64,000 bases of DNA, from contig CAMVKS010000006.1 in NCBI GenBank assembly GCA_947167995.1, positions 1-64,000 of the forward strand, in the 5' to 3' direction. Position numbers and translations under genes: made by a program. The notes under the pieces are model-generated. The model was not told the origin of the DNA and did no database searches. It saw only the letters and a program-made list of their open reading frames with translations. Origin of the DNA: an uncultured Prevotellaceae bacterium. Its GTDB lineage: Bacteria; Bacteroidota; Bacteroidia; Bacteroidales; Muribaculaceae. Positions 1,698-54,721 of the stretch are shown one piece after another; positions within the stretch are counted from its first letter, which is position 1, and each line of letters starts with the position of its first letter.

Positions 1698-2564
1698 TTA
1701 AAATTTTGTGCTGGCACCGCCGCCGCCAAAGTCGCCACCACCGTATTTATATTTGTATTGCTCGGCTTCGTCGGTCGCAGGTTTTGAATCCTCATCGTCA
1801 TCTTCATCTTCCTCGTTTTCTTCTTCGTTATCTTCGTCATCAGCTTCTTTGCCATTTTCGGGTTTCTCTTCCTGCGAGGGGGTCTCGCCCTCTTTGAGAT
1901 TGGAGGCTTGAGGTTGCTGTTGTGCGTTGAGACCTTTCTTATTGCGCTTGCGCAGGATGGCAATGAGCCCTATCACCGCAATTATCACCGCAAGATAAAA
2001 CCAGCCGTTGCCGCTGCCGCTCTTCTTCTTGCCATTGTCGGCAAGCGACTGGACGTGCTTGTAGTCTTTGAGGACTACAGGCACTATCTCGTCGATGGCA
2101 GCCTTGATGCCTCCAGCATAGTCTCCTTCCTTGAAGTGAGGCACCATGTAGTCGTTCTGCAGGCGCTTGCAGAACACATCGGGGAATGCACCTTCCAAAC
2201 CATATCCCACGGCAAACGCAATCTCGCCATCGCCCTGGTCGTTCTTGGGTTTGACAAGCATCACGAGTCCGTTGTTTTGACTCTTCCCGCCAATGCCCCA
2301 CTTCTGTCCAAGCTCGGTGGCAAACTGCTTGCCATCCATGCCGCCCAAGTCGTTGACGGTGACCACCACTATCTGGTTTTGGGTTTTCTTCGACAGGCTG
2401 TCGAGCTGGGCATTCAGGGCGGTAACAAGGGAGTCATTATTGATAATGCCAGCCATGTCGACCACTGGTGATGCCTGAGCTGGCCTCTCTGGCACCTGTG
2501 CAAAGCCCCTGCCGCACAAGAGTGCGACAAGAGCAAAAAATATAATTCTGTGTAATACCTTCAT
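1698..2564 (-). CDS. TPM-domain protein with acidic tail
   Basis: A 288-residue secreted or membrane-anchored protein. A signal peptide ends near residue 22 (cleavage after CGRGFA). The TPM domain (TLP18.3/Psb32/MOLO-1 fold) covers about residues 30-165 and carries the motifs VDMAGIIN, NQIVVVTVNDL, GQKWGIGGKSQNNGLVMLV and VGYGLEGAFPD. A transmembrane helix lies near 192-208. A long Glu/Asp-rich tail follows and ends in a Gly-rich patch. TPM proteins with a C-terminal anchor are common beside lemA; their biochemical role is unsettled (phosphatase activity is reported for the plant homologue). It is the fourth TPM gene in this operon. Confidence 0.85.
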   Translation of the reverse strand: MKVLHRIIFFALVALLCGRGFAQVPERPAQASPVVDMAGIINNDSLVTALNAQLDSLSKKTQNQIVVVTVNDLGGMDGKQFATELGQKWGIGGKSQNNGLVMLVKPKNDQGDGEIAFAVGYGLEGAFPDVFCKRLQNDYMVPHFKEGDYAGGIKAAIDEIVPVVLKDYKHVQSLADNGKKKSGSGNGWFYLAVIIAVIGLIAILRKRNKKGLNAQQQPQASNLKEGETPSQEEKPENGKEADDEDNEEENEEDEDDDEDSKPATDEAEQYKYKYGGGDFGGGGASTKF

Positions 2565-2614
2565 TATCTCAACCTTCCCAAAAACTTACCACTTATAACT
2601 TACTACTAAAAATA

Positions 2615-3412
2615 CTACCAGCTGCCGCCGCCACCGCCGCCGCCAAATGAGCCGCCGCCGAAGCCGCCCCAGCCACCGCCGCCGAAACTGCCACCGCCGC
2701 CCCAGCTGCTCGAACTGCGTCCGCTCCCGAAGGTGCCAGGGAAGATAACGGGACCGCCAGTGTAGGTGCGGGTGTTGTTGCCGCTGCCTGTGCCATTATT
2801 GCTGCTCATCACCACAAAGACAAAGCATAATATCATCAACACCACTATCACCGACAGCACTGCATCGCCGGCATCGTCACTGACATATTCATCAACATCA
2901 AATTCGCCCTGAAGCGCTGGCTTGATTATCTCTAATGCAGCCCAAATTCCACCGGCATAGTCTCCATCCTTGAAATGAGGTACCATCTCCTCGTCTACAA
3001 TCTTGCTGCACAGCAGGTCGGGCAACGGACCTTCGGCTCCATAGCCTGTGCTGATGAAGGCACGGCCCTTACCCTTGGCATCGTCGCCGGTCTTGGGCTT
3101 GATGAGCACAACAACACCATTGTTTGAGCCCTTGTGACCCACGCCCCACTTCTCACCCACTTCCTGCCCAAACTCGGCAAGCTGCATGCCGTCGAGAATT
3201 TCGTTGGTAATGGTCATCACCACAATCTGGTTGCTGGTTGTGCGAGAAAAATACTCGAGCGAGTCTTCAAGCATTTGCTTCTGGTCTGCGCTGAGAACGC
3301 CGGCATTGTCCCATACAAGCTTTTTCTCGGTGGGCTTGTCGGGCACTTGAGCGTTCATGCTCAGCATGAAACAGAGCATGAACAGTGCGGTCAATATTTT
3401 GTTGCGGCTCAT
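2615..3412 (-). CDS. TPM-domain protein with glycine-rich tail (YgcG-like)
   Basis: A 265-residue envelope protein. Signal peptide about 1-21 (ending SMNA), TPM domain about 30-165 (WDNAGVLSADQK, NQIVVMTITNE, GEKWGVGHKGSNNGVVVLI), a transmembrane helix near 186-204, then a Gly/Ser/Trp-rich tail with repeated GGGSFGGGGWGG blocks. This layout (signal, TPM, helix, GG-rich tail) is the classic YgcG form, with the TPM domain outside the inner membrane. It is the third TPM gene of the operon, 50 bases from the next gene and 11 from the one before. Confidence 0.87.
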   Translation of the reverse strand: MSRNKILTALFMLCFMLSMNAQVPDKPTEKKLVWDNAGVLSADQKQMLEDSLEYFSRTTSNQIVVMTITNEILDGMQLAEFGQEVGEKWGVGHKGSNNGVVVLIKPKTGDDAKGKGRAFISTGYGAEGPLPDLLCSKIVDEEMVPHFKDGDYAGGIWAALEIIKPALQGEFDVDEYVSDDAGDAVLSVIVVLMILCFVFVVMSSNNGTGSGNNTRTYTGGPVIFPGTFGSGRSSSSWGGGGSFGGGGWGGFGGGSFGGGGGGGSW

Positions 3413-50685: not shown

Positions 50686-50703
50686 GCCGTCAACTAAACT
50701 TTT

Positions 50704-50732
50704 CGGACAAAGGGGACGGTTCTTTTTGTCTG
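50704..50732. repeat. Palindromic element, copy A (REP-like)
   Basis: A hairpin with several G-U pairs around the core GGGACGGTTCT. It shares the core and layout with copy B 105 bases downstream. Similar GGGACGGTTCT hairpins recur in many bacterial genomes, so this may be a dispersed palindromic element. Confidence 0.6.
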
Positions 50733-50808
50733 ATTTTTCGAGTTATAGACTATTTTAGGGCTTTTTTGTTCTGTTTATGACCAATTTGGCTCAAAAATAT
50801 TGAAAAAA

Positions 50809-50841
50809 ATCGAACAAAAGGGACGGTTCTCTTTGTTCGAT
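50809..50841 (-). terminator. Palindromic element, copy B; terminator of the capsid-like gene
   Basis: A 14-bp stem with one bulged base (50809-50823 with 50828-50841) and the loop CGGT, with T-runs on both sides. On the minus strand the run of T lies just beyond the stem, 32 bases past the stop of the gene at 50873. Confidence 0.75.
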
Positions 50842-50872
50842 TTTTGGAGGGGTTAGAGGAAAGGTGTGTGTG

Positions 50873-52285
50873 TTACACCTTGACGATGCGCATGTGGGCT
50901 TTTGGGTATCGGAGTACAAGGCAGCTGGTCTCGGTGAGCACTGTGGCATCGACATTTCTCACGCCGCTGGCTTTGAGATTCAGTGTCTCGGCGCTGAAGG
51001 GCTGGTGTGTGTACTTCTGCAGATATTCGGGGTCGATGACCATTCCCTCGCTTGCCATTCCACACTCGTCAAAGACCTCGCTCAGCAACACATAGAGAGT
51101 TCCAAACTTGGATCTTATCTCGGTGAAGTCGATGCCCCACTTGGTCACGGTGTGGGTCGATGTCACCACTCGCTGGTAGTCGAGTTTGTTGAGTTGGGCA
51201 ATGAGTTCCGAGCCACCAATGAGGATTTTCCTCTTGCTGCCGGCGTTGCCAGTGAAAGCCTCCCTCATGAGGTCGACGATAGAGCCTTGCGTGAAGCCCT
51301 CGTCGTCGTAGACAAACTCCTTGCCAGCCTGTCTCCAGATGCCTCCAGTGAGCATCACATTCTCCTTCTTGTTGCTGTCCCAGATGCGTCCTTTCACCCC
51401 GAAGAGGAAGCACTTCTCCATTCCCAGTCTCATGTCGTAGATTGCAGCTTCTTCCTGGTCGTTCATGGTCCAGCCCACTTCTTTGTTGGCGATTTTCTGC
51501 ATAGTTGATTGTTCCACCTGCATCTTGAATATCTGGCAAAATTGCTGTGCCTTGCGTGGCATCGCCTCAAACTGTGGCGACATGACGTCGAGTTCGGTGG
51601 CCGCTCTTCCCATCCTGATGAGAGTGGTGCCTGCCGGTATGCTTGGCACGCATCCCTGCACGTCACCAATCTTCTTGCCGTTGACTGCCAGCACTTTCAA
51701 CTCGTTGTTGTCGCCGCGTGCAATGACATAGAGCACGAGTTCCTGGCTGGAGCTTGTCACACCGTCGGGCTCATAGCCAAACACTCCCTGCACGAGAATA
51801 GTGTCGGAGACGTCAAACATCTCGTTCTTAGCTGTGCGAATCTCGGCTTTCACGCTCTCGTCATCGACGCTTTGAGCGGTGGGCTCGTCATAGTCTTGTG
51901 TGGTAGTGGTTTTTGTGGGCTTGGTGTCGACGTTGTAGTAGTCGACAATCATGCTTCCTGCGTGTTTAGAGCCAGCACATCTCGAAAGCTGGTCGATGGG
52001 TGTCGCCATGGGTCGTACTTTGACAATCTGCTGGTCTATCTCGTTGAGCAACAGTCCAGGAGAAGTCTCGTTGGCGAGGTCGGTTGTGAGAGGCTCGTCG
52101 ACCACATGCTTGCCATCGGCGACTCCTGCTATCACCATGGCGAGCATCGCGCTGTGTTCTCCTGCGATGCATCCACCCAAGATGAGCATTATCACGATTG
52201 CCAAAAGCAACAGCAGCAGCTGGCGGTTGTTTTTCATCCAAGTGCGTGTATTTTTCACACGCTGAATAGTGTTTTTGATTGACAT
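50873..52285 (-). CDS. Phage major-capsid-like protein with N-terminal membrane segment
   Basis: A 470-residue protein. A hydrophobic segment at about 23-40 (QLLLLLLAIVIMLILGGCI) is followed by a second short one at 47-55. If translation begins at Met17, the segment reads as a lipoprotein signal (LGGC, Cys39). From about residue 57 on it resembles the SU10-type major capsid family (DUF5309): DEPLTTDLANETSPGLLLNEIDQQIVKVRPMATPIDQLSR at 63-102, then SMIVDYYNVDTKPTKTTTT. The C-terminal 140 residues (ILIGGSELIAQLNKLDYQRVV, EIRSKFGTLYVLLSEVFDECGMASEGMVIDPEYLQKY) match the end of that fold. No terminase, portal or tail gene is nearby. Alternatives: domesticated prophage relic or nanocompartment shell. 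Confidence 0.6.
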   Translation of the reverse strand: MSIKNTIQRVKNTRTWMKNNRQLLLLLLAIVIMLILGGCIAGEHSAMLAMVIAGVADGKHVVDEPLTTDLANETSPGLLLNEIDQQIVKVRPMATPIDQLSRCAGSKHAGSMIVDYYNVDTKPTKTTTTQDYDEPTAQSVDDESVKAEIRTAKNEMFDVSDTILVQGVFGYEPDGVTSSSQELVLYVIARGDNNELKVLAVNGKKIGDVQGCVPSIPAGTTLIRMGRAATELDVMSPQFEAMPRKAQQFCQIFKMQVEQSTMQKIANKEVGWTMNDQEEAAIYDMRLGMEKCFLFGVKGRIWDSNKKENVMLTGGIWRQAGKEFVYDDEGFTQGSIVDLMREAFTGNAGSKRKILIGGSELIAQLNKLDYQRVVTSTHTVTKWGIDFTEIRSKFGTLYVLLSEVFDECGMASEGMVIDPEYLQKYTHQPFSAETLNLKASGVRNVDATVLTETSCLVLRYPKAHMRIVKV

Positions 52286-52327
52286 AGAAGCTTTAGTTTT
52301 AAGTGTTAATAGATTTGATTTTTTTTC

Positions 52328-52717
52328 TCAATCCCAGAAACTGCGTTTGCGGTAGATGGGGAAGTTCACTGGTTGTGGTTGCTGTGCATCGCATGCATTG
52401 CTGGCTTCGTCGATGATTTCGTTTCGCCCTCGCACATAGCCTTGCGCCTCGGCGTTTTTCACGTCTTCGTCGTGGTTCAAAGCGCTTGCCACGAGCTTTG
52501 CGAGATTTTCGCCTGGCGACATGCCTTTCTCCAGAGGTTCAAGAATGGCTTTTGCCGAGGTGGCGATGTTCTCGGGCAGTCCCAAAGAGTCGATAATCTG
52601 GGTGATGCTGTGCGCCTTGTTGTCCTGTGGGGTGTTGTTGCAATCCTGCTGTGCATCGCATGCGGTGTCGTGGTTGGGCTCGCTGCCCTCTTGTAGAATC
52701 ATTTCATCGTTGTCCAT
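52328..52717 (-). CDS. Small acidic scaffold-like protein upstream of the capsid-like gene
   Basis: A 129-residue soluble protein. I chose the ATG at 52717 (MDNDEMILQEGSEPN); the longer reading starts in the leader. An acidic, Asn/Gln-rich N-terminal third (about 1-35) precedes a helical middle (ITQIIDSLGLPENIATSAKAILEPLEKG) and a charged segment ending AEAQGYVRGRNEIIDEA, then a basic, aromatic end PVNFPIYRKRSFWD. Its size, charge and place directly before the capsid-like gene are those of a phage scaffold or cargo-type protein. I know no family for certain. The gap to the next start is 42 bases. Confidence 0.55.
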   Translation of the reverse strand: MDNDEMILQEGSEPNHDTACDAQQDCNNTPQDNKAHSITQIIDSLGLPENIATSAKAILEPLEKGMSPGENLAKLVASALNHDEDVKNAEAQGYVRGRNEIIDEASNACDAQQPQPVNFPIYRKRSFWD

Positions 52718-52781: not shown

Positions 52782-52789
52782 CAAAATTA
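52782..52789 (-). promoter_or_regulatory. Candidate -7 element for the capsid-like module
   Basis: On the minus strand TAATTTTG (52789 to 52782) matches TAnnTTTG about 65 bases before the scaffold-like gene. A matching -33 box is not clear. Confidence 0.4.
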
Positions 52790-52923
52790 CGACAGTGCCG
52801 TTGGGTGAAACCATATTAAAAAATCACACACTTAGTGTGGTTTAGTTACCCGTTTTTTCATCTATCAAAAAAGGTCATTCTTCTATGTGATGCTTTGGGT
52901 TTGTCTATCGATGGCGTAAAAAT

Positions 52924-52959: not shown

Positions 52960-54036
52960 ATGGCAAAAAAGTTTTCATTTAATCGCAATACACTCATCCA
53001 CGTGTTGTGCTGGGGGCTTTTGATAGCCTTCCCCATCTTCATGTACCGTCAGAACGACACCATGACCGATGCCATGCGGCATTTTATGCGATCGTTGGGT
53101 GCTACTGTGGGCTACATGATTGTGTTCTATATCAATTATTGCTACATTGTGCCCAAACTGCTGTTTGAGAACAAGCGCAAGCGTTTTATTTTCTACAATG
53201 TGGTCTTGATTTTTTTGACAGTTGCTATCATGACCTGGTGGTGGCATGCCATGGGGAACACATTCCCTGCTTCAACCCCACAGCACAAACCCTTCAAAGC
53301 TCCTCCACAATGGACACGATTTGTGCAGATGTCCCTCATGCTCGTTCTGGTGGTGGGGTTGAGTGTGGCGTTACGCATGAGCCAGCGTTGGAGTAAGTTG
53401 CAACAGGCCAAGAAAGAAGCCGACCGATTGCGTACCGAGGCCGAGCTGATGAACCTTCGCAACCAGTTGAATCCACATTTCTTGCTTAACACATTGAACA
53501 ATATCTATGCCCTCATAGCTTTCGACCCCGAGAAAGCTCAGATTGCCGTGGGAGAACTCAGCAAACTGTTGCGCCACGCCCTCTACGACAACCAAAAGAA
53601 GTTTGTGCCACTCTATAAAGAGGTTGAGTTCATCGAGAACTATATCGAGCTGATGAAGATTCGCGTGACCAACAACGTGAAAATCAACACCGACATCGAC
53701 ATCGACGAGAATGACTCTACTCCCATTGCGCCTCTCATCTTCATCTCACTCATCGAGAACGCTTTCAAGCATGGTGTCTCTCAGGCTGGTGATGGAGAAA
53801 TCAGCCTTGTCATGAAGAACAATGAAGACAAGATTACTTGCGAGATTGTCAATACCAACCATCCCAAGCGCGACAACGACAAGAGCGGCTCGGGAATAGG
53901 GCTTGAGCAGGTGGACAAGAGGCTTGAACTCATGTATCCCGGGCGATATGAATGGGAAAAAGGCGTTGACAAAGAAACCAATAAGTATTATTCAAAAATA
54001 ACTCTATACAATGAAAATAAAATGCGCAATAATTGA
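52960..54036 (+). CDS. LytS/YehU-type sensor histidine kinase
   Basis: A 358-residue membrane kinase. Four hydrophobic segments lie in the first 140 residues (about 12-28, 47-66, 78-95, 120-137). A coiled linker (about 143-166) leads to the His_kinase domain with the phosphorylated His173 in LRNQLNPHFLLNTLNNI. The ATP-binding part includes PLIFISLIENAFKHG (N box), SGSGIGLEQVDKRLELMYPGRYEW (G box). This type pairs with LytTR regulators; here the regulator gene overlaps its end by 26 bases. The signal is unknown. Confidence 0.94.
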   Translation: MAKKFSFNRNTLIHVLCWGLLIAFPIFMYRQNDTMTDAMRHFMRSLGATVGYMIVFYINYCYIVPKLLFENKRKRFIFYNVVLIFLTVAIMTWWWHAMGNTFPASTPQHKPFKAPPQWTRFVQMSLMLVLVVGLSVALRMSQRWSKLQQAKKEADRLRTEAELMNLRNQLNPHFLLNTLNNIYALIAFDPEKAQIAVGELSKLLRHALYDNQKKFVPLYKEVEFIENYIELMKIRVTNNVKINTDIDIDENDSTPIAPLIFISLIENAFKHGVSQAGDGEISLVMKNNEDKITCEIVNTNHPKRDNDKSGSGIGLEQVDKRLELMYPGRYEWEKGVDKETNKYYSKITLYNENKMRNN

Positions 54037-54721
54037 CGACGAGCCTCTGGCAATAGAATTGCTGGTGAGCTATGTCAATAAGATTCCTTTTATGGACTTG
54101 CAAGGCAAGTATTCCAATGCTGTCGACGCTATGAAAGGCATTACCGACAATCCTGTTGACCTCGTCTTCCTCGATATTCAGATGCCTGAGCTCAACGGAA
54201 TGGAGCTGTCTAAAATGTTGCCCGAGTCGACACGCGTGGTGTTTACAACAGCCTTTGAACAATATGCCGTCGACGGATATCGCATCAATGCCCTTGACTA
54301 CTTGCTCAAGCCCATCACCTACCACGAGTTTCTCGAGGCATGCAACAAGGCATTGCAATGGTTCAAAATGGTTCAACAGGTTGAGGAGCCCAAGACTCCC
54401 GAAGCGACGAGCATCTTTATCAAGAGTGAGTACAAGCTGCTTCAAATCGAACTTGACGACATCCGCTACATCGAAGGCTTGAAAGACTATGTAAAAATCT
54501 ATACCGAGCAGTCGCCCCATCCCATCTTGTCGCTCATGAACATGAAAGCCATCGAACAGATGCTGCCTTCGTCTCGATTTGTGAGGGTTCACCGCTCCTA
54601 TATTGTTCAGAAGAGCAAGATTCGAGAGATTGACCGCAACCGCATTGTCTATGACGACAACCTGTCAATCCCCATTGGAGACAGCTATAAGCAAGCGTTT
54701 CTCGACTTCCTGGGCCAATAA
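54011..54721 (+). CDS. LytTR family response regulator
   Basis: A 236-residue response regulator. The receiver domain (about 1-120) has the phosphorylated Asp55 in LVFLDIQMPE, acidic residues Asp9 and Asp10, and LDYLLKP near 98-105. The LytTR DNA-binding domain (about 135-236) has SIFIKSEYKLLQIELDDIRYIEGLKDYVKIYT and FVRVHRSYIVQKSKI. It is translationally coupled to the kinase gene. The two repeat-protein genes begin 37 bases later without a visible promoter or terminator between, so they are probably one operon. Confidence 0.95.
   Translation: MKIKCAIIDDEPLAIELLVSYVNKIPFMDLQGKYSNAVDAMKGITDNPVDLVFLDIQMPELNGMELSKMLPESTRVVFTTAFEQYAVDGYRINALDYLLKPITYHEFLEACNKALQWFKMVQQVEEPKTPEATSIFIKSEYKLLQIELDDIRYIEGLKDYVKIYTEQSPHPILSLMNMKAIEQMLPSSRFVRVHRSYIVQKSKIREIDRNRIVYDDNLSIPIGDSYKQAFLDFLGQ

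Follow-up and report, generated by a model that had tools for sequence, protein, structure and literature searches.

RcGTA and other alphaproteobacterial gene transfer agents (GTAs) are phage-derived, vertically kept systems that occupy several chromosomal loci under host control, with the structural cluster located largely in one place. Few GTAs are known. The subject of the present analysis is a gene pair encoding a phage-type capsid protein and a small scaffold-like protein in a 64,000-nucleotide stretch of DNA (hereafter the window; positions 1 to 64,000 of contig CAMVKS010000006.1, assembly GCA_947167995.1) from an uncultured Prevotellaceae bacterium that GTDB assigns to the Muribaculaceae. 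This pair belongs to a phage-derived DNA-packaging system that consists of at least five separate units and is vertically kept in several families of Bacteroidales; the pair is probably the head operon of a GTA-like system.

Among published systems, FpGTA of Faecalibacterium comes closest; it is a GTA of the short-tailed-phage type from gut bacteria, for which the available portion of the report describes a Gram-positive host, two compact operons with terminase, portal, scaffold and capsid genes and, in the second operon, lysis genes, as well as particles and packaged DNA (PMC12946183). Compared with FpGTA by description and not by homology, the system analyzed here belongs to Bacteroidales and, in the genome of the window, is distributed over five separate units that share a motif. 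The alphaproteobacterial GTAs, as far as the available part of the source goes (PMC7947584), consist of other protein families and occur in another phylum. Encapsulins, according to the portion of the article at hand (PMC8346489), resemble the present case in that an HK97-fold capsid gene resides in the host chromosome but are shells with dedicated cargo loading, whereas here portal, terminase, adaptor and tail genes are co-inherited with the capsid gene. Two temperate Bacteroides phages, BF1-TP2 (PQ571263) and BS-TP4 (PQ571277), encode a homologous capsid (40-42% identity) with a hydrophobic leader like that of the window protein, a gene at the scaffold position, a portal, a terminase and an adaptor; a tail protein homologue was found in BF1-TP2, BS-TP4 being covered over positions 1-40000 only. 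In these phages all genes lie in one genome of 64-68 kb, together with giant structural genes and a rhomboid-type protease and, in BF1-TP2, alongside integrase, repressor and recombination genes, whereas in the present system the genes are separated and the portal and scaffold are shortened.

The capsid gene, its scaffold-like partner and their relatives

The features of the pair in the window are the following.
50873..52285, minus strand: major capsid protein of the SU10/HK97 type, 470 amino acids (aa), with a hydrophobic N-terminal leader and a lipobox-like Cys39 (PF17236, phrog_26635, Foldseek matches to phage capsids)
52169..52285, minus strand: residues 1-39 of the capsid protein, its hydrophobic leader (Kyte-Doolittle profile, ILGGC box)
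52328..52717, minus strand: putative shortened scaffold-like protein, 129 aa, in which the conserved C-terminal end (..KRSFWD) is kept (blastp cluster c1, alignment A13, weak phrog_22323 match)
52782..52822, minus strand: promoter-like motif TTTTTAATATGG-N25-TTTG, its sole match in the window, common to the five units of this genome

The original prediction, made from the letters of the window, described this pair as an orphan module consisting of a scaffold-like protein and an SU10-type capsid. Both reading frames (470 and 129 residues) are indeed intact, and the identity of the larger product is borne out by matches to SU10_MCP (PF17236, E=8e-52, residues 74-468) in Pfam and to phrog_26635 (E=2.4e-90, residues 21-467) in PHROGs. 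An AlphaFold model based on 28 sequences, those of the window protein and its relatives, is moderate (mean pLDDT 60.2, pTM 0.58). Its top PDB matches in Foldseek are phage capsids (VP1 at 1.3e-11, phicrAss001, P22), with TM-scores of only ~0.2-0.3, followed by F1-ATPase chains from E ~4e-3, and its top match among viral structures is a Podoviridae protein (7e-22). Because the TM-scores are low, the capsid assignment rests on the sequence families; these and, in part, the model back an HK97-type capsid, as the structural check proposed with the prediction had asked.

The 129-residue protein falls into a blastp single-linkage cluster (c1) with the gene that precedes the capsid gene in Bacteroides phages, with which it has a common C-terminus (alignment A13). 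The match to phrog_22323 is weak for the window protein (0.0054) and strong for the prophage copy in genome G049 (8.4e-88). Since it is about half as long as its phage counterpart, the protein is read as a shortened scaffold; the predicted scaffold-like gene thus finds a counterpart at the same position in phages, and a scaffolding function appears plausible.

A contig scan with one genome per species yielded 50 loci at 56-86% identity, a good number of them of ruminant origin, under titles such as Muribaculaceae, Prevotellaceae, Porphyromonadaceae, Bacteroidales and Coprobacter. The same pattern method, which finds close relatives only, gave no relative in a viral contig collection, and among 50,697 phage records the matches were three Bacteroides phages at 40-42% identity. 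The 50 relatives, the window and two phages make up the 53 loci considered below. Loci of the relatives are designated L001-L050 and their genomes G001-G050, G000 being the genome of the window itself. Linked prophage copies were seen in G012, G035, G049 and in part G005; other homologues form orphan loci flanked by host-type genes, in agreement with the prediction that the pair is domesticated, maintained and set apart from phage genes, and do not always lie within complete prophages. In L048, from a metagenome-assembled genome titled Coprobacter, the capsid gene occupies two overlapping frames (1281-1982 and 1949-2671, plus strand), the result of a frameshift or an assembly error.

Packaging genes: co-inheritance, arrangement and a shared motif

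L034 contains, 1.8 kb away from the capsid gene, a gene that matches a phage portal protein. A portal profile built from this gene and two phage portals matches 50 of 51 genomes, namely G000 and the genomes with loci L001-L050 except for G002; portals other than linked prophage copies are present in 49 of the 51, that of G045 being a fragment and G049 having the prophage copy only. The terminase profile, derived from two phages, matches all 41 genomes submitted out of the 51, with non-prophage matches in 39 (the prophage copy being the sole match in G035 and G049), and the profiles for the tail protein and the adaptor match 31 and 27 of 32 genomes, respectively. For comparison, a search for the universal RpoB domain PF00562 succeeded in 26 of 30 of the same genomes.

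Across the order, the capsid profile matches 36 of 393 genomes that are at least 80% complete. Seven families account for 33 of the 36 (f1 with 6; f19, f25, f64 and f102 with 5 each; f57 with 4; f83 with 3), figures that count positives only. Single capsid matches in G066, G341 and G421, with all genes on one contig, look like prophages. When 35 capsid-positive genomes (all except G000) were compared with 20 capsid-free genomes from families other than the seven, the terminase was found in 34 versus 0, the portal in 35 versus 0 and the tail protein in 31 versus 0; without the three prophage-like genomes the counts are 31/32, 32/32 and 28/32. The misses are G343 for the terminase and G181, G273, G343 and G296 for the tail, although reading the locus of G181 revealed a tail-type frame despite the missed profile match; the portal match of G296 is a fragment only. 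Internal stops occur in matches of the portal (G015, G037), the terminase (G040, G033, G415, G308) and the tail protein (G048); several of these overrun the usual end of the protein, and the longest frame was used with nothing mended. Contamination of genome bins is disfavored, given that the pattern recurs in the single-contig genomes G290 and G322 and in the 51 genomes.

In G000 the profile search found single copies of these genes in units on five contigs, each of at least 5 kb: the capsid unit on C6, endolysin and portal on C33, terminase on C13, tail on C75 and adaptor on C106. The absence of terminase, portal and tail genes from the window, asserted in the prediction, follows from the location of the sole matches in the genome, including that of the adaptor, on other contigs. 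The claim of a two-gene module does not hold, however: elsewhere the genome carries portal, terminase, adaptor and tail genes, all of the same phage type, that are inherited together with the pair. The flanks of the units include LuxS, a GYF-domain protein, RuvC, MatE and SusD, and the nearest flanks of all five are host-type or of unknown family in Pfam; the flanks of other loci were judged by inspection, and no search for integrases was made in any genome. A complete prophage in G000 is ruled out by this distribution over five contigs. The portal is of the P22 type (PF16510, 1.3e-19) and lies behind a peptidase M15 gene (PF08291, 3.1e-20; endolysin phrog_894, 1.6e-39), and the terminase large subunit matches phrog_2 (8.2e-19). 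In an alignment of ten terminases, two of them from phages (A8), the residues KARQWG[GC]ST, [ST]EV, ESTANG, D[VI]GG, ESN and HDD are kept in all ten; these motifs presumably serve ATP hydrolysis and DNA cutting, that is, the ATPase and nuclease roles. Directly upstream of the terminase in two genomes lies a conserved frame of 83-84 aa (L119:3397-3648 and L304:438-689, plus strand), a candidate small terminase subunit for which no clear family match was obtained. Capsid, scaffold-like, portal, terminase, adaptor and tail genes are all homologous to those of Bacteroides phages, and so of tailed-phage descent, as expected of a GTA; an encapsulin, by comparison, is a shell without portal, terminase and tail, and here all three co-occur with the capsid.

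Pairwise protein divergences of capsid, portal, terminase and tail correlate with one another and with that of RpoB (r 0.84-0.98; 15-30 genomes per comparison, prophage-type copies excluded), and in each of ten comparisons 0 of 2000 permutations reached so high a value. The median ratio of nonsynonymous to synonymous divergence (dN/dS, pairs with dS <2) is 0.117 for the capsid, 0.103 for the portal, 0.156 for the terminase and 0.166 for the tail, against 0.038 for RpoB. The set is inherited vertically in the host chromosome under purifying selection, and the predicted maintenance of the pair is supported by intact frames, dN/dS of 0.10-0.17 and divergence in step with RpoB. In a capsid tree of 34 rows, of which three are long-branched, the 4 viral and 30 orphan capsids (the latter cut from 39) are parted at 100/100, a split that fits a single domestication without proving it. 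The G012 prophage capsid was dropped from this tree because its branch length of 10 disturbed the first one; its sequence looks like another capsid type.

The gene set is seen in compact, partly split and widely split form. G181, where the system may have its smallest form, carries tail and terminase genes, a 131-aa frame in the scaffold position, and capsid, adaptor and portal genes within ~9.4 kb (L310:7269-16643), and in G403 terminase, tail, capsid and portal lie within ~13 kb. The single contig of G290 (3.44 Mb) has scaffold and capsid, terminase with ejection-type genes, and portal and tail at three places over ~53 kb, beside and between which are genes for a fumarase, a class II tRNA synthetase and an MFS transporter. 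In that of G322 (3.08 Mb) the capsid gene is separated from the terminase by 31 kb and from portal and tail by ~245-260 kb; host genes next to the separate units of these two genomes encode fumarase, tRNA synthetase, MFS and SprA. Several relatives have portal and adaptor, or terminase and tail, on a common contig. Two giant phage proteins, of 3633 aa (L055:12225-23126) and 5391 aa (L056:1511-17686), have short homologues of 788 aa (L303:16828-19194, G290) and 774 aa (L309:10959-13283, G322) beside a domesticated terminase or portal.

A common element, approximately TTTTTTAATRTKG followed after 22-23 bases by TAnTTTTGCA, precedes each of the five units of G000 (scaffold-capsid, endolysin-portal, terminase, tail and adaptor) and is a predicted promoter that would tie the units together. 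A score matrix made from the five sites also detects numerous orthologous units in relatives, and no second gene exceeds the 95% background level (capsid 0/52, portal 0/13; these counts include some sites twice where two loci overlap). In G001-G015 the exact pattern precedes 20 of 34 first genes, no second gene (capsid 0/16, portal 0/3) and 0 of 400 further genes from these loci, with the qualification that orthologous upstream regions are not mutually independent; G000 was excluded because the pattern had been chosen after its five sites were seen. Genome-wide, 13 genomes contain 165 sites versus 4 for the reversed pattern, and system units follow 17 of the 28 sites in seven site-poor genomes and 5 of the 18 in G000. 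Extra T-rich copies of this promoter class (TTTTTAATRTTG..TACCTTTG), some near-identical within a genome, occur in G001, G005, G006 and G010 before unrelated genes or with no clear gene behind them, and possibly represent a repeat family or another regulon.

Leader, neighbors and terminators

The capsid leader reaches a maximal Kyte-Doolittle value of 3.19 over 17 residues and contains an ILGGC box. A hydrophobic N-terminal stretch is present in 51 of 60 scored capsids, 38 of the 51 with a lipobox-like cysteine; the scores are invalid for G043 and G045 (over-long frames) and for G048 (a fragment). The leader is found in phages BF1-TP2 and BS-TP4 and in the prophages of G035 and G049, and is absent from the G012 prophage, with its other capsid type, and from the orphan capsids of G030, G032, G034, G049 and G403. 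Since phages and prophages have it while several orphan capsids lack it, the leader is probably ancestral and dispensable. The hydrophobic N-terminus noted in the prediction is real, but the accompanying statement that phage capsids carry no such segment is wrong for this family, and the leader was rejected as a mark of domestication.

In all five phages and prophages examined, a small membrane protein, named rhomboid by the depositors of two, is encoded beside the terminase.
L052:5986-6453, minus strand: rhomboid-like protein (motifs)
L053:5942-6460, minus strand: rhomboid-like protein (motifs)
L123:5741-6280, minus strand: rhomboid-like protein (motifs)
L125:4301-4912, plus strand: rhomboid-like protein (motifs)
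L126:5194-5679, plus strand: rhomboid-like protein (motifs)
Four of the five contain GxSG and all five FFHxNxxHxxxN, which we take to be rhomboid motifs; the one protein scanned against Pfam and PHROGs gave no rhomboid match. Four of these five phages and prophages have a leader-bearing capsid, which suggests, as a guess, that the capsid is assembled while tethered to the membrane and that the leader is cleaved by a phage-encoded enzyme. No paper mentioning a rhomboid protease, a bacteriophage and the major capsid protein together was found in the literature searched.

The surroundings of the pair in the window include a regulatory gene pair and a probable terminator.
52960..54721, plus strand: LytS-type kinase (52960-54036, PF06580) and LytTR response regulator (54011-54721; PF04397 1.3e-20, PF00072)
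50808..50842, strand not assigned: inverted repeat of 11 bases, flanked on either side by T-runs, that probably acts as a terminator downstream of the capsid gene (identified by eye in the sequence)
Pfam confirms the CotH proteins and the LytS-type kinase as neighbors, together with the LytTR regulator. Among the 53 loci the scaffold-like gene is the most frequent neighbor of the capsid gene (32 loci), the rest of the neighborhood being variable; the kinase cluster recurs in 16, its LytTR partner in 14 and CotH genes in 14, mainly in the clade of the window, with the kinase also in L024 and L026. The neighbor clusters are single-linkage blastp groups, in which some families are split or merged. 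The kinase-LytTR pair precedes the capsid operon in some genomes and trails it in others; that it might regulate the system is a guess based on linkage. As for a possible cargo gene, no widely recurring neighbor other than the scaffold gene is seen in these loci, cargo-loading peptides not having been searched for.

The pair had further been credited with its own promoter candidate and terminator. A sigma-70 scan is near chance (4 sites vs 2.7 expected), and the motif at 52782-52822 is the better promoter candidate; the terminator part probably stands, in the form of the repeat at 50808-50842, the loop of which exceeds the limit of the hairpin scan. This hairpin and another at 50703-50733, ~105 bases apart on the 3' side of the capsid gene, are alike, with GGGACGGTTCT.TTTG in common, and look like repeated terminators.

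Interpretation and alternatives

On the available evidence, the best-supported reading of the capsid pair is that it is probably the head operon of a GTA-like system. An ancestor of the short-tailed-phage type would have been domesticated, probably once, in the ancestor of several Bacteroidales families, with retention of the scaffold, capsid, portal, terminase large subunit, head-tail adaptor and tail protein and, in the clade of the window, also the peptidase M15 endolysin. In the lineage of the window the cluster would then have been dispersed to separate places as single genes or pairs, with the common promoter-like motif as the link between them. A host signal would fire the promoters, scaffold and capsid would build a prohead on the portal, the terminase would pump in and cut chromosomal DNA, the adaptor and tail protein would close the particle, and the endolysin would free it.

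Several observations weigh against this reading. The adaptor match is absent from 5 of 32 genomes and is weak in G000 (2e-8), and G343 is without terminase and tail matches. In the clade of the window the scaffold appears to be shortened, as is the portal, for which most matches stop at ~position 485 of 606. No small terminase subunit was recognized apart from the 83-84 aa frame that two genomes have ahead of the terminase, and the large ejection-type protein (c73) is found in 4 of 32 genomes but not in G000. The separation of the units in G000 is read by contig, and the contigs are short and do not give the true distances; in G006 the separation is incomplete, the scaffold, portal, adaptor and terminase units lying on one contig within ~67 kb. 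Many further motif sites lie elsewhere, mainly in G001, G005, G006 and G010, some of them before unrelated genes, for which reason the motif is regarded as a promoter class that is not exclusive to the system. Finally, the available part of the FpGTA report describes lateral transduction in Bacteroides and places 23 of 25 GTA-like events in Gram-positive families (PMC12946183).

The same separated genes would also serve a particle that packages DNA without transferring it, such as a killing or kin-discrimination particle of the kind represented by PBSX, which, in the available text of the source, packages host DNA without transfer (PMC7667829). Such a particle is unlikely here: retention of adaptor and tail fits delivery, and inspection showed no toxin, long tail or immunity gene beside the units examined, a statement limited to these surroundings as the genome was not searched for them. 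Slow decay of prophage remnants that were separated by rearrangement and have no present function would account for the shortened portal and scaffold and for the split capsid gene in L048; it is very improbable in view of the open frames in most genomes, the median dN/dS of 0.10-0.17, recovery as regular as that of RpoB and the shared motif.

Equally slight is the probability that the host keeps head and packaging genes as spare parts, either to interfere with related prophages or to be borrowed by them: the linked prophage copies mentioned above speak for it, but a full morphogenesis set with a common motif exceeds the needs of interference, and most of the 51 genomes have one portal copy only. 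The encapsulin-like, membrane-bound shell put forward in the original prediction, for which a capsid and scaffold with a hydrophobic leader might argue, is scarcely tenable and was rejected. The capsid is co-inherited with terminase, portal and tail, and such a shell would have no need of these or of the adaptor; the leader occurs in phages as well, and the scaffold gene alone recurs widely, whereas the kinase and CotH genes are largely limited to the clade of the window.

The GTA reading can be extended into a more complete scenario, which is offered tentatively and is, as a whole, rather doubtful. One old domestication would have given rise to a short-tailed-type GTA of Bacteroidales that in some lineages was split to a gene or pair per locus, united by a shared promoter and perhaps controlled by LytS-LytTR, and in which the capsid is first made on the membrane with a cleavable leader inherited from phages that have their own rhomboid-type protease.

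In the titles and abstract openings covered by the literature search, with preprints and most subscription journals outside it, no GTA was found reported for Bacteroidota. In a gut data set, 46 contigs had generalized-transduction or GTA patterns, with Bacteroidetes as the largest contig group, according to the available part of the article (PMC7667829). The system described here could be one source of these patterns. The gut data set in question is reportedly from mouse. Scattered genes of this kind would probably be missed by finders that seek clusters of phage genes, and the range from G181 and G403 through G290, G322 and G006 to G000 allows the break-up of a phage cluster to be studied. 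Such a system, maintained across several Bacteroidales families, would be relevant to gene exchange in the gut and rumen; under the fuller scenario given above, it would also be the first GTA of the Bacteroidota and would provide a steady path for genes to be exchanged in both habitats.

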